Source: Hydrogenophilus sp. (lineage in GTDB: Bacteria; Pseudomonadota; Gammaproteobacteria; Burkholderiales; Thiobacillaceae). Taken from it: DNA of 64,000 nucleotides. The stretch lies in assembly GCA_020725195.1 (NCBI GenBank), contig DYFL01000009.1:1-64000 (forward strand), in the 5' to 3' direction. Positions 1 through 60,231 of the stretch are shown here, piece by piece (the first letter of the stretch is position 1; each line of letters begins with the position of its first letter). The translations under genes were made by a program, and so were the position numbers. The notes below the pieces were generated by a model. That model did no database searches, was not told the DNA's origin, and worked only from the letters and a program-made list of their open reading frames with translations.

Positions 1-3000
1 ATCTCGCCCACAACGGCGAGATCAACACCGTGCAGGGCAACCGCAACTGGGCCCGCGCCCGGGAGCGCAAGTTCGCCTCGCCGCTCATCCCGAACATGGA
101 CGACGTGCGCCCCATGGTCGGCACCAGGGGCTCCGACTCCATGAGCTTCGACAACATGCTCGAGGGCCTGGTGATGGGCGGTGCGGGCCTCTTCCGCGCC
201 ATGCGCCTGATGGTGCCGCCGGCCTGGCAGAACGTCACCCACATGGACCCGGAGCTGCGCGCCTTCTACGAATACAACTCCATGCACATGGAGCCCTGGG
301 ACGGCCCCGCGGGCATCGTGATGACCGACGGCCGCTACGGCGTGTGCATGCTCGACCGCAACGGCCTGCGGCCCGCGCGCTACGTCGTCACCAAGGACCG
401 GTTCGTCACCATCGCCTCCGAGGTGGGGGTGTGGGACTACGGCGGCCCCGAGAACATCGTCGCCAAGGGCCGTGTGCGCCCCGGCCAGATGGTGGCGGCC
501 GACCTCGAGACCGGGACGTTCCTCTTGCCCGAGGACATCGACGCCCAGCTCAAGGGCCAGCACCCCTACCGCGACTGGCTCAAGCACCACGCCAACCGCC
601 TGGAGCTGGGCCCCGAGCAGGATGCGGACATGCCCCATCTCGACGCCGCCAGCCTGAAGACGCACCAGAAGCTCTTCAACGTGAGCTTCGAGGAGCTCGA
701 CCAGGTCGTGCGCGTGCTCGCCGAGGACGGCCAGGAGGCGGTGGGCTCCATGGGCGACGACACGCCCATGGCGGTGCTGAGTCAACAGGTGCGCTCGCCC
801 TTCGACTACCTGCGCCAACAGTTCGCGCAAGTCACCAACCCGCCGATCGACCCGATCCGCGAGGCCGTGGTGATGAGCCTCAACACCGTGTTCGGCCGCG
901 AGCAGAACCTGTTCGAAGAGACCCCGGACCACGCCCACCGCCTGGAGGTGACCTCGCCGGTGCTCTCGCACGACAAGTTCACCGCCGTCACCACCCAGGC
1001 CGACCCGGCCTATGCCGCGGTGACCTTCGACCTCGCCTACGACCCGGCCGCCGCCGACCTCAAGGCCGCGATCGAGCGGCTCGCTCGTGACGCCGTCGCC
1101 GCGGTGCGCGCGGGCAAGGTGGTCGTGGTGCTGTCCGACCGCAAGATCGTGCGGGAACGCCTGCCCATCCCCATGCTCTTCGCGGTGGGCGCCGTGCACC
1201 ACGCCCTGACCGACGCGGGCCTCAGATGCGACGCCAACATCGTGGCCGAGACCGGCACCGCGCGCGACCCGCACCAGCTCGCCGCCCTGATCGGCTACGG
1301 CGCCACCGCCGTCTATCCCTACCTCGCCTACCAGAGCATCGCCGAGATGGTGCGCTCGGGCGAGGTCAGGCCGCCCCTCTACAAGGCCCTGGCCAACTAC
1401 CGCAAGGGCCTGGACAAGGGCCTGTACAAGGTGATGTCCAAGATGGGCATCTCGGCGATCGCGAGCTACCGCGGCGCCCAGCTCTTCGAGATCGTGGGCA
1501 TGCACGAGGAGGTGGTGGGCCTGTGCCTGCGCGGCACCACCTCGCGCATCTCCGGCGCCGACTTCGCCGACTTCGAAGCCGACCAGAAGCGGCTGGCCCG
1601 TGCGGCCTTCAATCCGCTGCGCATGATCCCCGCCGGGGGCCTGCTCAAGTTCATGCACGGCGAGGAATACCACGCCTACAACCCGGACGTGGTGCAGACC
1701 CTGCAGAAGGCGGTGCAGACCGGCTCCTACGAGGCCTACCAGGAATACGCCCGCCTGGTGAACGAGCGCCCCGTCGCCATGCTGCGCGACCTGATGCGCC
1801 TGAAGGAGGCGGCGAGCCCCATCGCCGTCGACGAGGTCGAGCCGCTCGAGGCGATTTTGAAGCGCTTCGACTCGGCCGGCATGTCGCTCGGCGCGCTTTC
1901 TCCGGAAGCCCACGAGGCCCTGGCCGAGGGCATGAACCGCATCGGCGGCCGCTCCAACTCCGGCGAGGGCGGCGAGGACCCGGCCCGCTACGGCACGCTC
2001 AAGATGTCCAAGATCAAGCAGGTGGCCTCCGGCCGCTTCGGCGTGACCCCGCACTACCTGGTCAACGCCGAGGTGCTGCAGATCAAGATCGCCCAGGGCG
2101 CCAAACCCGGCGAGGGCGGCCAGCTGCCCGGCGGCAAGGTCTCCGAGCTCATCGCCCGCCTGCGCTGCACCAAGCCCGGCATCTCCCTGATCTCGCCGCC
2201 GCCGCACCACGACATCTATTCGATCGAGGATTTGGCCCAGCTGATCTTCGACCTGAAGCAGGTCAACCCCGACGCCCTCGTCTCCGTCAAGCTCGTGGCC
2301 GAGCCCGGCGTGGGGACCATCGCCGCGGGCGTGGCCAAGGCCTATGCGGACCTCATCACCATCTCCGGCTACGACGGCGGCACCGGCGCCTCGCCCCTGA
2401 CCAGCGTGAAGTACGCCGGCACCCCCTGGGAGCTGGGCGTGTCCGAGGCCCAGCAGGTGCTGCGCGCCAACGGCCTCAGGGGCCGGGTGCGGGTGCAGGC
2501 CGACGGCGGCCTCAAGACCGGGCTGGACGTCATCAAGGCCGCGATCATGGGGGCCGAGTCCTTCGGCTTCGGCACCGGCCCCATGGTCGCCCTGGGCTGC
2601 AAGTACCTGCGCATCTGCCACCTGAACAACTGCGCCACGGGCGTGGCCACCCAGGACGAGACCCTGCGCCGCAAGCACTTCATCGGCCTGCCCGAGATGG
2701 TGGTGAACTACTTCAGCTTCGTCGCGCGCGAGACCCGCGAGTGGATGGCCAGGCTCGGCATCAGGAAATTCGAGGACCTGATCGGCCGCACCGACCTGCT
2801 CGACCTCCTGGAGGGCGAGACCGACAGGCAGCACAGGCTCAAGCTCGATCTGCTGCTCTCCCAGGGCAGCATCCCCGAGACCGAGCCGCGCTATTGCATG
2901 GAAAAATCCAACCCCTCCTTCGACAAGGGCGAGCTCGCCGAGCAGATGGTCGCCGACGCCCTCGGGGGCATCCGGGCGAAGCGCCCGCAGCGCCTGGCAT

Positions 3001-57086: not shown

Positions 57087-57797
57087 TCAGGGCCTCAGGT
57101 CGCGCAGGCGCCCCGTATCCAGGACGGTGATGGTGCGGCCGGCCACCTCGATGATGCCCGCCTCGCGCAGGTCCCGCAGGGCGCGGGAGAAGGTCTCCTT
57201 GGTCATGTTGAGGTGGGAGGCCGCGGCCTGCTTGGAGACGGGCAGGGTCAGCTCGTAGCTGGGAGAGTCCAGCCTCGGGCTGAAATGCAGCAGGTAGCAG
57301 GCCAGGCGGCGGACCCCCGTGTGGCCGTTCATCGCCCGCATCTTCTGCTGGGCATCCAACAGCTGCCGGCTGAGCCCCTCCAGCATCCTCGCGGTCAGCG
57401 CCCCGCCGCCGCCCAGCAGGCGCATCATGGCGGGGCGCGGGATGGCGATCAGCCTCGAATCCAGGGTGGCCTGGGCGCAGACCCCGTAGCCCGCGCCCAG
57501 GATGGTCGAGGCATCGCAGAAGCCCTCGCCGGGCCGGACGATGCCGATCACCTTGGGGTCCCTGCCGTCGGCCTCGGGCTCGCAGAGCTGGATGCAGCCG
57601 GCGCCGAGCAGATAGAAATGGCGCGGCGCATCCCCGGCCCGGAACAGGATGCGTCCCTTGTGCAGCACGATCAGCCGGGCCTCCTGGGACAGCGTTTCCA
57701 TGAGCGCCGCGTCCAGCCCGCTGAACAGCGGCATCTGGCCCAGCATGGCCACGGTCTCTTCGTATTCCGACAGCTCTGCGAGGGGGATGCGCATCAT
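57087..57797 (-). CDS. Crp/Fnr-family transcriptional regulator
   Basis: 236 residues. Cyclic-nucleotide-binding-like domain at about 20-130 (PLFSGLDAALMETL, GDAPRHFYLLGAGCIQLCEP) and a C-terminal winged helix with LPVSKQAAASHLNMTKETFS as recognition region. The N-terminal cysteines that hold the [4Fe-4S] cluster of FNR are absent, so it belongs with the DNR/FixK-like or CRP-like branches. Recognition residues (E-T-F-S-R) suggest TTGAT-type sites, and one such site lies divergently at 58033. The start is the ATG pair at 57794/57797; a GTG at 57827 is possible. Confidence 0.9.
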   Translation of the reverse strand: MMRIPLAELSEYEETVAMLGQMPLFSGLDAALMETLSQEARLIVLHKGRILFRAGDAPRHFYLLGAGCIQLCEPEADGRDPKVIGIVRPGEGFCDASTILGAGYGVCAQATLDSRLIAIPRPAMMRLLGGGGALTARMLEGLSRQLLDAQQKMRAMNGHTGVRRLACYLLHFSPRLDSPSYELTLPVSKQAAASHLNMTKETFSRALRDLREAGIIEVAGRTITVLDTGRLRDLRP

Positions 57798-58192
57798 CGC
57801 GTCACCCGGGCGTTCATGGCGGGGCACTCCGGCGGAAGCAGCGGCTTGTGTTCTGCAAAGGTGGTGGCGCGCTCTCGGGCCATGGACGGTTCCCTCTCTC
57901 CCGGCTCTCCCCCCGCAGGGGCGCGGTTTCGCGACGCGCGCCTCACGGCAGGGAGCCGGGGCGAAGATGCATCCGGCCGCGAAGCTCGCGGGTGGCCTTT
58001 ACCCGGGTAGCTTACAGAGATAGCGGGATTTTTTGATTGGTATCAATAAACCACCTGGCCCGGACTTGCGCGCAGGCAAATTCCTTCCGGCCCCCGGCGC
58101 CCACAATGGCAGCCAAGGCACGATCGGCGGGGCGGCCGACCCCGGCTGCCGGGGGGCTTGTTACACAGCGGGAGCACTGAAGAGGAGACACC
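57798..58192. other. Divergent control region between the Crp/Fnr gene and uspA
   Basis: 395 bp. It holds the FNR-type box at 58033-58046 and a C-rich hairpin region (CTCTCCCCCCGCAGGGGCGC) near 57905. I see no further gene. Confidence 0.5.
58033..58046. promoter_or_regulatory. FNR/DNR-type operator
   Basis: TTGATTGGTATCAA is a perfect dyad match to TTGAT-N4-ATCAA. If it acts at -41.5, transcription would begin near 58081, upstream of the UspA-YeiH cluster. Confidence 0.75.
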
Positions 58193-58612
58193 ATGAAGCG
58201 AATACTCGTTGCAGTCGATGGTTCGGCCGAGTCCGACAAGGCCCTGGACTTCGCCGTGGGCCTGGCCAAGGGCGCGCAGGCGGAACTCCTGGTCGTCAAC
58301 GTGGCCGAGGACATGTGCCCGATCGGGGTGACGGAGCTCGACGTGAAGACGGTCCGCGAGATCTCCCGGAAGGAATCCGACGCGATCCTCGCCGCCGCCC
58401 TGGAGCGGGCGCGGGCGGGCGGCGCCCGGGTGCGCGGCGTCAGCGAGCCGGGCTCGCCCGCCGCGGTGATCGAGGACATCGCCAGGCGCGAGCAGGTCGA
58501 TCAGGTGGTGGTCGGCTCGCACGGCAAGCACGGCGCGCGCAAGGTGGCGCTGGGCAGCGTCTCCTCCCGGGTCGTGGAGTGGGCCCCCTGCACCGTCACC
58601 GTCGTCAAGTAA
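58193..58612 (+). CDS. Universal stress protein (ATP-binding type)
   Basis: 139 residues, UspA fold. Starts KRILVAVDGSAESDKALDFA and has the nucleotide-binding motif G-x2-G-x9-GS (GSHGKHGARKVALGS) at about residues 110-124. AGGAGA lies upstream of the ATG. First gene downstream of the FNR-type box, and 17 bp before the small membrane-protein gene, so it probably belongs to an anaerobically induced operon with the exporter. Confidence 0.92.
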   Translation: MKRILVAVDGSAESDKALDFAVGLAKGAQAELLVVNVAEDMCPIGVTELDVKTVREISRKESDAILAAALERARAGGARVRGVSEPGSPAAVIEDIARREQVDQVVVGSHGKHGARKVALGSVSSRVVEWAPCTVTVVK

Positions 58613-58629
58613 CCGTCAGGAGAAACAGC

Positions 58630-58779
58630 ATGACCGAGGAGTTCGAGAAGAAGGCGACGGAAACCTTTTCCGCCGAGCGCAAGGAGGACATCTTCGTCCT
58701 GATCGTGGCCGCCGTCGTCGTCGCCCTGGTCTTGGCCGGCGCCATCGGCAAGGACTTCTACAAGTCCCTCTTTTTCTGA
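58630..58779 (+). CDS. 49-residue single-helix membrane protein
   Basis: MTEEFEKKATETFSAERKED, then one hydrophobic helix IFVLIVAAVVVALVLAGAIG and a short tail KDFYKSLFF. AGGAGA ends 6 bp before the ATG and codon use matches neighbours, so it is a real gene. It sits 31 bp before the YeiH-type exporter and is likely a small partner or assembly subunit of it. Function is inferred only from position. Confidence 0.8.
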   Translation: MTEEFEKKATETFSAERKEDIFVLIVAAVVVALVLAGAIGKDFYKSLFF

Positions 58780-58810
58780 TCATTCAACCGCTTGGCGAAG
58801 GAGAACGAGC

Positions 58811-60187
58811 ATGGCTGGTGGTGGAATCGGCGTCGAATACAGTCTGCGCGGCCTGCCCAGGATGCTGCCGGGACTCATCCTGTGCGTGGTCTTCGGCTGG
58901 CTGGCCCTGCAGTGGGACAGCAATATCAGCAACTGGAACCGGGACGCGAAGGAGTCGGAGAAGATCCTCAAGTCCTGGACCGAGGGCAAGCCCGTGCTCG
59001 CCTACGACGAATACGTGCAGAAGGCCAAGGAGGGCTTCGCCAAGAAGGAGGCCGAGTTCAAGGAGCAGAAGGCCGAGTACGACGCACACGTGGCGGCCCT
59101 GCCGCCGGGCGGGCAGCCGGCCCTGAAGGAGCCCAAGAAGCCGAGCAAGCCGCACCCCCTGAAGCAGGCGGACTACGAGGAGCTGACGCAGGGCAAGGCG
59201 GTCGCGGGCAAGCTCGCCTTCGGCCAAAGGATGATCGAGTTCCAGCTGACCTATGTCGCGGTGCTGCTGCTCGGCGGCATGCTGATCCGCAACACCGTCG
59301 GCGTGCCCGCCGTCTTCCAGGTCGGCACCCTCGCGGCGCGGCCGCTGATCAAGCCCGGCATCATCATCCTCGGTGCCTACTACATGTGGTCGCACGTGCT
59401 CAAGGTCGGCGTCATCGGCATGGTCCTGGTGATCGCCTTCGTCATGGGCACGGCCGTCCTGGTGTCGCTGTGGGGACGCCGCGCCAAGGTGGACGACGGC
59501 CTGACCGGCGTGATGGGCGCGGGGGTCGGGGTCTGCGGCGTGTCCGCCGCCGTCGCGGTCGCGCCGGTGGTCAACGCCAAGCCGCGCGACTTCTTCTACG
59601 CCATCGGCACCATCCTGCTGTTCGGCACCCTCGCCCTGTTCACCTTCCCCTACATCGGCCAGGCCCTGGGCATGAGCGAGCCGGTGTTCGGCGCCTGGGT
59701 GGGCACCTCCATCCTCAACACCGCGCAGCTGGTGGCGGCCGCGACCTGGTACGGCCACGAGTCGCTGCTCACCGCCAACATCATCAACATCGTGCGCGTC
59801 GCCTTCATCCCCCTGGTCGTGCTCTGGGCCATCTACTACTACGTGGTCAAGCCGGCGGTGGCGGCGGGCGGCGAGGCGGAGAAGGTCAACGCCTGGCAGG
59901 TGATCAGGGACAAGTTCCCGATCTTCATCTTCGGCTTCTTCGCCATGGTGACCCTGAACGAGATGGGCGTGTTCACCGAGGAGCAGACCAAGATCCTCGC
60001 CGGCGACCTGCTCAAGCTCTTCTTCGCGGTCGGCTTCGCCGGCGTGGGCCTCAACATCGCCTTCGACGACCTGAGGAAGGCGGGCGGCACGGCCTTCATG
60101 ATCGGCTTCGCCTCGGCCGGCCTCAAGGCCATCCTGGCGGCGGTGGTGGTCATCGCCCTGGGCACCGAGGTCTTCGCGGTCAGGTAG
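58811..60187 (+). CDS. YeiH-type putative sulfate exporter with a charged insert
   Basis: 458 residues, an inner-membrane protein of the conserved YeiH/PSE family (putative anion exporters; substrate unproven). Helix 1 (LPGLILCVVFGWLALQW) is followed by about 95 charged residues rich in Lys, Glu and Pro (for example EEFAKKEAEF-like coils near 75-90 and LKEPKKPSKPHPLK near 112-125), probably partly coiled coil. The remaining nine or ten helices follow, with family segments IIILGAYYMW, GAGVGVCGVSAAVAVAPVV and LKLFFAVGFAGVGLNIAF. AAGGAGA lies 6 bp upstream. In a sulfur oxidiser it could export sulfate or sulfite. Confidence 0.85.
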   Translation: MAGGGIGVEYSLRGLPRMLPGLILCVVFGWLALQWDSNISNWNRDAKESEKILKSWTEGKPVLAYDEYVQKAKEGFAKKEAEFKEQKAEYDAHVAALPPGGQPALKEPKKPSKPHPLKQADYEELTQGKAVAGKLAFGQRMIEFQLTYVAVLLLGGMLIRNTVGVPAVFQVGTLAARPLIKPGIIILGAYYMWSHVLKVGVIGMVLVIAFVMGTAVLVSLWGRRAKVDDGLTGVMGAGVGVCGVSAAVAVAPVVNAKPRDFFYAIGTILLFGTLALFTFPYIGQALGMSEPVFGAWVGTSILNTAQLVAAATWYGHESLLTANIINIVRVAFIPLVVLWAIYYYVVKPAVAAGGEAEKVNAWQVIRDKFPIFIFGFFAMVTLNEMGVFTEEQTKILAGDLLKLFFAVGFAGVGLNIAFDDLRKAGGTAFMIGFASAGLKAILAAVVVIALGTEVFAVR

Positions 60188-60201
60188 TCGCGGCGCTGCG
60201 G

Positions 60202-60231
60202 CCCCGGCGGGCTCGCCCGCCGGGGTTTTTT
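60202..60231 (+). terminator. Terminator after the YeiH-type gene
   Basis: CCCCGGCGGGC pairs with GCCCGCCGGGG, followed by TTTTTT. Very stable; the second UspA gene starts only 13 bp later and may depend on read-through. Confidence 0.9.

Follow-up and report, generated by a model that had tools for sequence, protein, structure and literature searches.

A one-helix protein gene conserved beside long-form YeiH/PSE-family transporters in a Hydrogenophilus contig: a putative multi-part variant of a known transporter family

Described YeiH/PSE systems and the present locus

Transporters of the YeiH/PSE family (PF03601, TC 2.A.98), such as Salmonella YeiH, H. denitrificans Hden_0834 and P. pantotrophus SuyZ, appear in the literature in the context of sulfite stress or thiosulfate oxidation. 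The same family includes the transporter studied here, which is encoded in a 64,000-nucleotide stretch of Hydrogenophilus sp. (positions 1 to 64,000 of contig DYFL01000009.1, assembly GCA_020725195.1; hereafter the window) directly after a gene for a 49-aa single-helix protein. Salmonella YeiH was reported to confer sulfite resistance (PMC12880088), and H. denitrificans yeiH was found 526-fold up-regulated with thiosulfate and was taken to excrete sulfite (PMC11582611, PMC12423496). Unlike the unit in the window, the Salmonella and Hyphomicrobium yeiH genes are described in those papers as adjoining a LysR regulator. Canonical YeiH loci also differ in that the transporter is shorter and the small protein, the universal stress protein (Usp) and the SRPBCC-like protein are lacking, which was the case in all canonical loci inspected (0/32 with any of the three).

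The closest described gene set is DVU0542-DVU0545 of D. vulgaris, a sigma54-controlled operon for a Usp, a PSE transporter, a 133-aa transmembrane (TM) protein and a second Usp (PMC10102598, PMC4641369, PMC3333781), that is, the same kinds of genes as in the window. Mutants lacking the transporter, the 133-aa TM protein or the second Usp were fitter in molybdate and those lacking the first Usp less fit, and the roles are called unclear by the authors (PMC10102598); the regulators of the operon were also reported to bind lactate-utilisation genes (PMC4641369, PMC3333781). Neither a short small protein nor a counterpart of the downstream 190-aa protein of the window (P190) is described for this operon. 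The bicarbonate transporter SbtA works with a nucleotide-sensing cytosolic partner, SbtB, and resembles the present system in the proposed logic, in which a cytosolic protein that senses nucleotides controls an elevator-type anion transporter; SbtA belongs to another family, SbtB is PII-like rather than a Usp, and no small TM subunit is involved. The oxaloacetate decarboxylase gamma subunit and similar proteins are small one-helix partners of multi-helix transporters, which constitutes the likeness, but the 49-aa protein has no Pfam match to such families.

The comparative evidence presented below suggests, with some reserve, that the 49-aa protein is probably a dedicated single-helix subunit of a distinct YeiH/PSE group, which would move a sulfur oxyanion, probably by exporting sulfite, and would be tuned by Usp and P190. 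Its presence beside an enlarged YeiH, a Usp and an SRPBCC-like protein, mostly in sulfur-respiring or sulfur-oxidising bacteria, makes it probable that the small protein is dedicated to a sulfite or sulfate transporter. Overall, the best reading of the locus is a known transporter family in a new, multi-part form.

Conservation of the small gene, the transporter types and the larger unit

A genome-contig scan with the window transporter alone, in which the small protein was not used, gave 26 relative loci (type A) from Rhodocyclaceae, other Betaproteobacteria, Thiobacillus, a Gammaproteobacteria-labelled record, Thermodesulfovibrionales, other Nitrospirota, Desulfobacca, Syntrophobacteraceae and Caldimicrobium-labelled metagenome-assembled genomes. 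An open reading frame (ORF) of 49-62 aa ends 15-52 nt 5' of the transporter gene in 25 of the 25 loci with upstream DNA, the sequence of the remaining one (L027) beginning inside YeiH. Between close pairs, the dN/dS of the small ORF is 0.03-0.20 (computable in 7/8 pairs). The 49-aa ORF is a genuine conserved coding gene, and conservation together with dN/dS rules out a chance ORF or an artefact. Among 26 small-protein sequences, the window's included, F13, A15, E16, R17, E19, D20, L24 and G37 are invariant. The 49-aa protein reaches the cut-off of no Pfam or NCBIfam family, the scores against EssA (14.1 bits, cut-off 24.1) and FliL (12.5 bits, cut-off 179) both lying below the curated thresholds. 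As K and R are more numerous before the helix than after it in all 50 small proteins tested, the N-terminus is predicted to be inside, which would put the conserved F-x-x-[ED]-[RK]-x-E-D motif where the helix meets the cytoplasm. In the open-licence PMC literature, no description of the small protein was found, nor any report linking YeiH with a small membrane protein or combining YeiH, dsrAB and sulfite.

Weaker small-protein matches revealed a second transporter type (type B), a YeiH of 520-540 aa that is extended at the N-terminus and has a long, charged insert ahead of its final helices, in which the small protein (39-51 aa) is encoded 3' of YeiH, so that the order is reversed compared with type A. 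Thirteen type B loci were then defined by their PF03601 match pattern, again without the small protein, and the small ORF is present in all 12 that have downstream DNA; L130 stops at the contig end, and an incomplete type B candidate (G302) stands outside the 13. The first-pass annotation of this DNA, which had proposed a dedicated subunit, held that lack of conservation of the small gene would refute the idea. Since the gene is kept next to long-form YeiH in 25/25 type A and 12/12 type B loci, the idea survives that test, and the conservation beside YeiH across phyla supports it.

By contrast with these two types, the small protein is found in none of 41 distinct canonical and ~470-aa YeiH loci. 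The ~470-aa type (L136-L142, L060 and L061) has a different N-terminal extension and often occurs in dsrA-positive genomes (6/9). The small-protein profile matched in 3/117 genomes of the family, 4/369 of the class (5 places) and 20/245 of the Nitrospirota sample, and a wider profile matched in 3/247 genomes of the Desulfobacterota sample; these counts are lower bounds, because most type B genomes escaped the first profile in the class search. All matches adjoin a PF03601-type gene, and none was found elsewhere in the searched genomes.

Two loci carry the small protein or a longer version of it beside a YeiH without the insert. In L092, the small gene (1495-1632, minus strand) lies 3' of a 366-aa YeiH without a large insert, with no Usp or P190 within the 3-kb locus. 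In L145, from the Desulfobacterota, a 135-aa counterpart (1465-1869) lies between a 375-aa insert-less YeiH and a Usp; it has an F-x-x-D-R-x-E-D motif, a TM helix and then a Biotin_lipoyl/HlyD-like tail, Usp genes lie on both sides, and the operon is followed by a sodium:sulfate symporter gene. The small protein is therefore linked to the YeiH group and not to the insert, and the idea that it comes with the insert is weakened. Because the gene order of DVU0542-DVU0545 equals that of L145, DVU0544 is probably also a longer counterpart of the small protein, as judged from gene order and length. In a phylogenetic tree, a single branch sets off each of types A, B, C and the canonical YeiH from the rest, and type A groups with type B, Nitrospirota B-like rows and L145 (support 91/62). 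One complete genome (G427) holds two type B copies, L065 and L066.

The second Usp and the downstream P190 are members of a conserved unit, which is larger than the first-pass annotation described. All 27 distinct type A loci (window included) have Usp and P190 genes on the same strand and no more than 3.5 kb away. The order is nearly always small gene, YeiH, Usp and P190, usually with another Usp in front, a counterpart of uspA1 being found upstream in 20/26 relatives by tblastn; L014 is an exception, with the order Usp, P190, Usp, small gene and YeiH. The type B order is YeiH, small gene, Usp and P207, and among 29 rows, several of them from incomplete loci, the small gene is found in 28, Usp in 27 and P207 in 24. 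P190 likely contains an SRPBCC-like domain, because among its members (n=22) three match PF10604 (Polyketide_cyc2) and two match AHSA1, with a best E of 0.00025, although the window's own P190 has no match; to judge from the sequence, the conserved C-terminal half consists of an amphipathic helix and then a TM helix. Hairpins with z<=-2 follow YeiH in 20/25 type A loci (coding control 1/25) and follow the small gene in 9/11 type B loci. In both gene orders, the transporter and small genes lie on one side of the hairpin and Usp with P190 or P207 on the other. Of the anatomical hints that the small protein is part of the transporter, this like division of the two orders is the strongest. Near one type A unit (L005), a single open frame (650-2674, plus strand) joins a TauE-type exporter domain (PF01925) to a Usp domain (PF00582), which may represent a second sulfur-anion exporter family coupled to Usp.

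The window transporter scores 168.3 bits against PF03601 (cut-off 24.5), with a match only from residue 144, and all 24 type A members examined match this family. The score against NCBIfam TIGR00698 (YeiH putative sulfate exporter) is below the cut-off (77.8 versus 232.6 bits), and the protein is therefore a PF03601 relative and not a TIGR00698 YeiH. Among the canonical members found here, open frames range in length over 324-404 aa, where a usual length of 340 aa had been given earlier. The insert noticed in the first-pass annotation is present at about residues 41-146 (family mean 18.5 K+R and 14.2 D+E), but its description as about 95 charged residues was wrong, the stretch being ~105 residues long and about a third charged. 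An AlphaFold2 (AF2) model built from 57 diverse sequences (pLDDT 92.1, pTM 0.85) has TM1 as one helix to residue 57, a second helix at 65-95 and short helices at 119-128 and 133-144, so that the type A insert is shown by the model as a stiff helical hairpin; an earlier, poor model (24 close sequences, pLDDT 54.8) was set aside in judging the fold. VIA-align gave closely spread Z of 11.5-14.3 to SbtA, NapA, ASBT, NhaP and CitS, which we take to be elevator-type transporters, although helical models can reach such Z by a common arrangement; the best-scoring structure is the bicarbonate transporter SbtA, and SbtA-SbtB complexes are among the structures listed. Foldseek returned no PDB match at E<=0.001 (best E 0.06), and sequence searches of the PDB gave no useful match. 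Counting back through the helices from the positive loops (222-230, 350-371 and 414-426), the transporter N-terminus is predicted inside and the type A insert periplasmic, and the same count on homologous loops would make the type B insert periplasmic as well. A periplasmic YeiH C-terminus has been predicted in a published study (PMC12880088).

Substrate, proposed mechanism and alternatives

A sulfur oxyanion is the favoured substrate of the transporter, as the association with dsrA and the published YeiH work would both fit. The dsrA gene was found over the cut-off in 41/50 carrier genomes (the window's included) and as fragments in three more (44/50). In the class sample, it is present in 14/17 carriers versus 95/323 others (odds ratio 11, p 2e-5, phylogeny ignored), the former figure becoming 14/18 if the incomplete candidate G302 is counted as a carrier, and in none of 34 genomes with canonical YeiH. 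In the Nitrospirota, it is present in 19/20 carriers versus 90/225 others (odds ratio 28, p 1e-6, phylogeny ignored). Sulfite export would fit best, because sulfur oxidisers and reducers both carry type A.

Under the subunit reading, the small protein would pack against the transporter in about equal number and offer a cytoplasmic docking site, at which nucleotide-binding Usp and P190 might dock and thereby open or close the elevator-type transporter. The substrate would be a sulfur oxyanion, in the likeliest case sulfite that the DsrAB pathway makes or releases and that the transporter exports, with the helical hairpin of the insert pointing into the periplasm. In this genome, a Crp/Fnr-family protein acting at a perfect palindrome probably sets expression, and other lineages would use other regulators.

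Several observations weigh against this proposal. Support for the clade of types A and B is only moderate, L092 carries the small protein and yet branches elsewhere on a long branch, and L066 lacks Usp and P207. The strong terminator claimed before the second Usp in the window has a perfect stem and a T-run, but its region is not unusual for the GC content (z -1.5). Six of the 50 carriers (G439, G316, G386, G485, G492 and G535) have no dsrA match of this strength, among them G439, a complete single-contig genome with a type B unit and no dsrA match. Enrichment for dsrA is also seen with further extended YeiH types that lack the small protein (6/9 and 7/11), so this unit does not stand alone in the association, and the dsrA tests take no account of phylogeny. 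Moreover, the molybdate phenotype of D. vulgaris could equally mean oxyanion import.

That last point leads to an alternative which we consider unlikely, though deserving of serious weight, namely that the unit imports an oxyanion (sulfate, with molybdate as a toxic look-alike), the roles of the small protein and Usp being unchanged. It would account for the better growth in molybdate of the three D. vulgaris mutants named above (transporter, 133-aa TM protein and second Usp; PMC10102598), for the presence of type A in sulfate reducers, which must import sulfate, and for the sodium:sulfate symporter gene after the L145 operon. However, sulfur oxidisers, which need to shed sulfite or sulfate, have the same type A transporter, the 23 aligned relatives from oxidisers and reducers being 64-84% identical to the window's, and YeiH relatives are described as protecting from sulfite (PMC12880088) or rising with thiosulfate oxidation (PMC11582611, PMC12423496). 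That another anion, such as bicarbonate or an organic acid, is moved, with dsrA reflecting shared ecology, appears quite improbable: SbtA as the top structure, carrier G439 without dsrA and the regulators of the D. vulgaris operon, which also bind lactate-utilisation genes (PMC4641369, PMC3333781), point that way, whereas the Z values are spread closely over the whole fold class and carry no functional signal, the dsrA odds ratios are 11 and 28 in two samples, and PF03601 relatives point to sulfite (PMC12880088, PMC11582611, PMC12423496). There is likewise a slim chance that the small protein is a co-inherited regulator or stress peptide acting alone, as the support for a subunit comes from gene neighbourhood and neighbours of the Usp class suggest stress functions; against this, the small gene stays beside the transporter gene and on the same side of the hairpin even though types A and B have opposite gene orders, and no match away from a YeiH-type gene was seen in the searched genomes.

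Going beyond the subunit reading, a long shot would be an undescribed class of multi-part sulfur-oxyanion exporters, with an elevator transporter, an obligatory one-helix subunit, interchangeable periplasmic adaptor parts and control by Usp and SRPBCC sensors, in which sulfite would be handed to a periplasmic or outer-membrane partner. In types A and B, the adaptor would be an additional charged segment, placed in a different loop of the transporter in each type and modelled as a helical hairpin in type A, and in the L145 type it would be a barrel-sandwich (HlyD-like) domain on the small subunit; taken together, the type A hairpin and the L145 lipoyl part may be likened to the two corresponding parts, hairpin and lipoyl, of membrane-fusion adaptors.

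How toxic sulfite and bulk sulfate cross the membrane in sulfur reducers and oxidisers is poorly known, and here a one-helix partner absent from Pfam and NCBIfam accompanies a transporter group found mostly in dsrA-bearing genomes. If the subunit reading is true, Usp proteins would gain a concrete target in a transporter, the published and unexplained molybdate operon of D. vulgaris would be accounted for, and the unit would provide a small, easily tested gene set.

Locus layout, regulation and flanking genes

All the elements noticed at first pass, namely the box, uspA, the small single-helix protein, the YeiH-family gene with an insert and a second UspA after a terminator, are present in the window (Table 1), and the start codon of P190 overlaps the last base of the uspA2 stop codon.

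Table 1. Features of the locus in the window, with the evidence for each
Feature	Coordinates	Strand	Evidence
Crp/Fnr-family regulator gene, divergent	57087..57827	-	PF13545 and PF00027 over cut-off
FNR/DNR-type palindrome TTGAT-N4-ATCAA, perfect, 160 nt 5' of uspA1	58033..58046	+	pattern scan
uspA1, universal stress protein, 139 aa	58193..58612	+	PF00582, 111 bits (cut-off 24)
Small single-TM protein gene, 49 aa, predicted N-in, motif F-x-x-[ED]-[RK]-x-E-D just before the helix	58630..58779	+	
Long-form YeiH/PSE-family transporter, type A, 458 aa	58811..60187	+	PF03601, 2.5e-49
Transporter insert between TM1 and TM2	58931..59248	+	AF2 model and alignment; periplasmic location predicted
Terminator-like hairpin between the YeiH gene and uspA2, 12-bp GC-rich stem and T-run	60200..60231	+	
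uspA2, universal stress protein, 147 aa	60244..60687	+	PF00582, 69 bits (cut-off 24)
P190, putative SRPBCC-like domain, amphipathic helix and C-terminal TM helix, 190 aa	60687..61259	+	

The perfect FNR-type box reported before uspA1 was borne out. With <=1 mismatch allowed, the box TTGATTGGTATCAA at 58033-58046 is the sole match in the window (shuffle mean 0.14), and it is one of four perfect TTGAT-N4-ATCAA sites in the 2.84-Mb genome, where a reversed control pattern gave none. Judging the products by reading the sequence, the other three precede genes for fructose-1,6-bisphosphatase, a membrane protein and a small c-type cytochrome, the last at L149:1548-1901, directly 3' of its box. The box is perfect in 0/26 relatives (best 9/10, in L016), and FNR control is therefore not supported as a general property of the system. 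Control of this operon by oxygen or nitric oxide is therefore plausible here but would be local to this lineage. The adjacent Crp/Fnr protein has no cysteine in its first 70 residues, where the N-terminal cluster of Fe-S FNR would be expected, and its nearest NCBIfam families are FtrB, FixK and Fnr, all far below cut-off; its gene is not among the recurring neighbours in relatives.

The substrate could not be read from the flanking genes, as the flanks differ and the recurring ones are two-component systems and, in some Rhodocyclaceae, TauE-type exporters; outside the unit, no gene recurs in the type B flanks. In L008, L012 and L017, from the Nitrospirota and Desulfobacterota, the type A units are flanked by two-component systems with a Tll0287-like sensor domain, and the regulators read next to these belong to the sigma54 activator type. 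Several relatives encode, close by, a Tll0287-type sensor kinase along with such a response regulator, or else a kinase with a phosphonate-binding domain.

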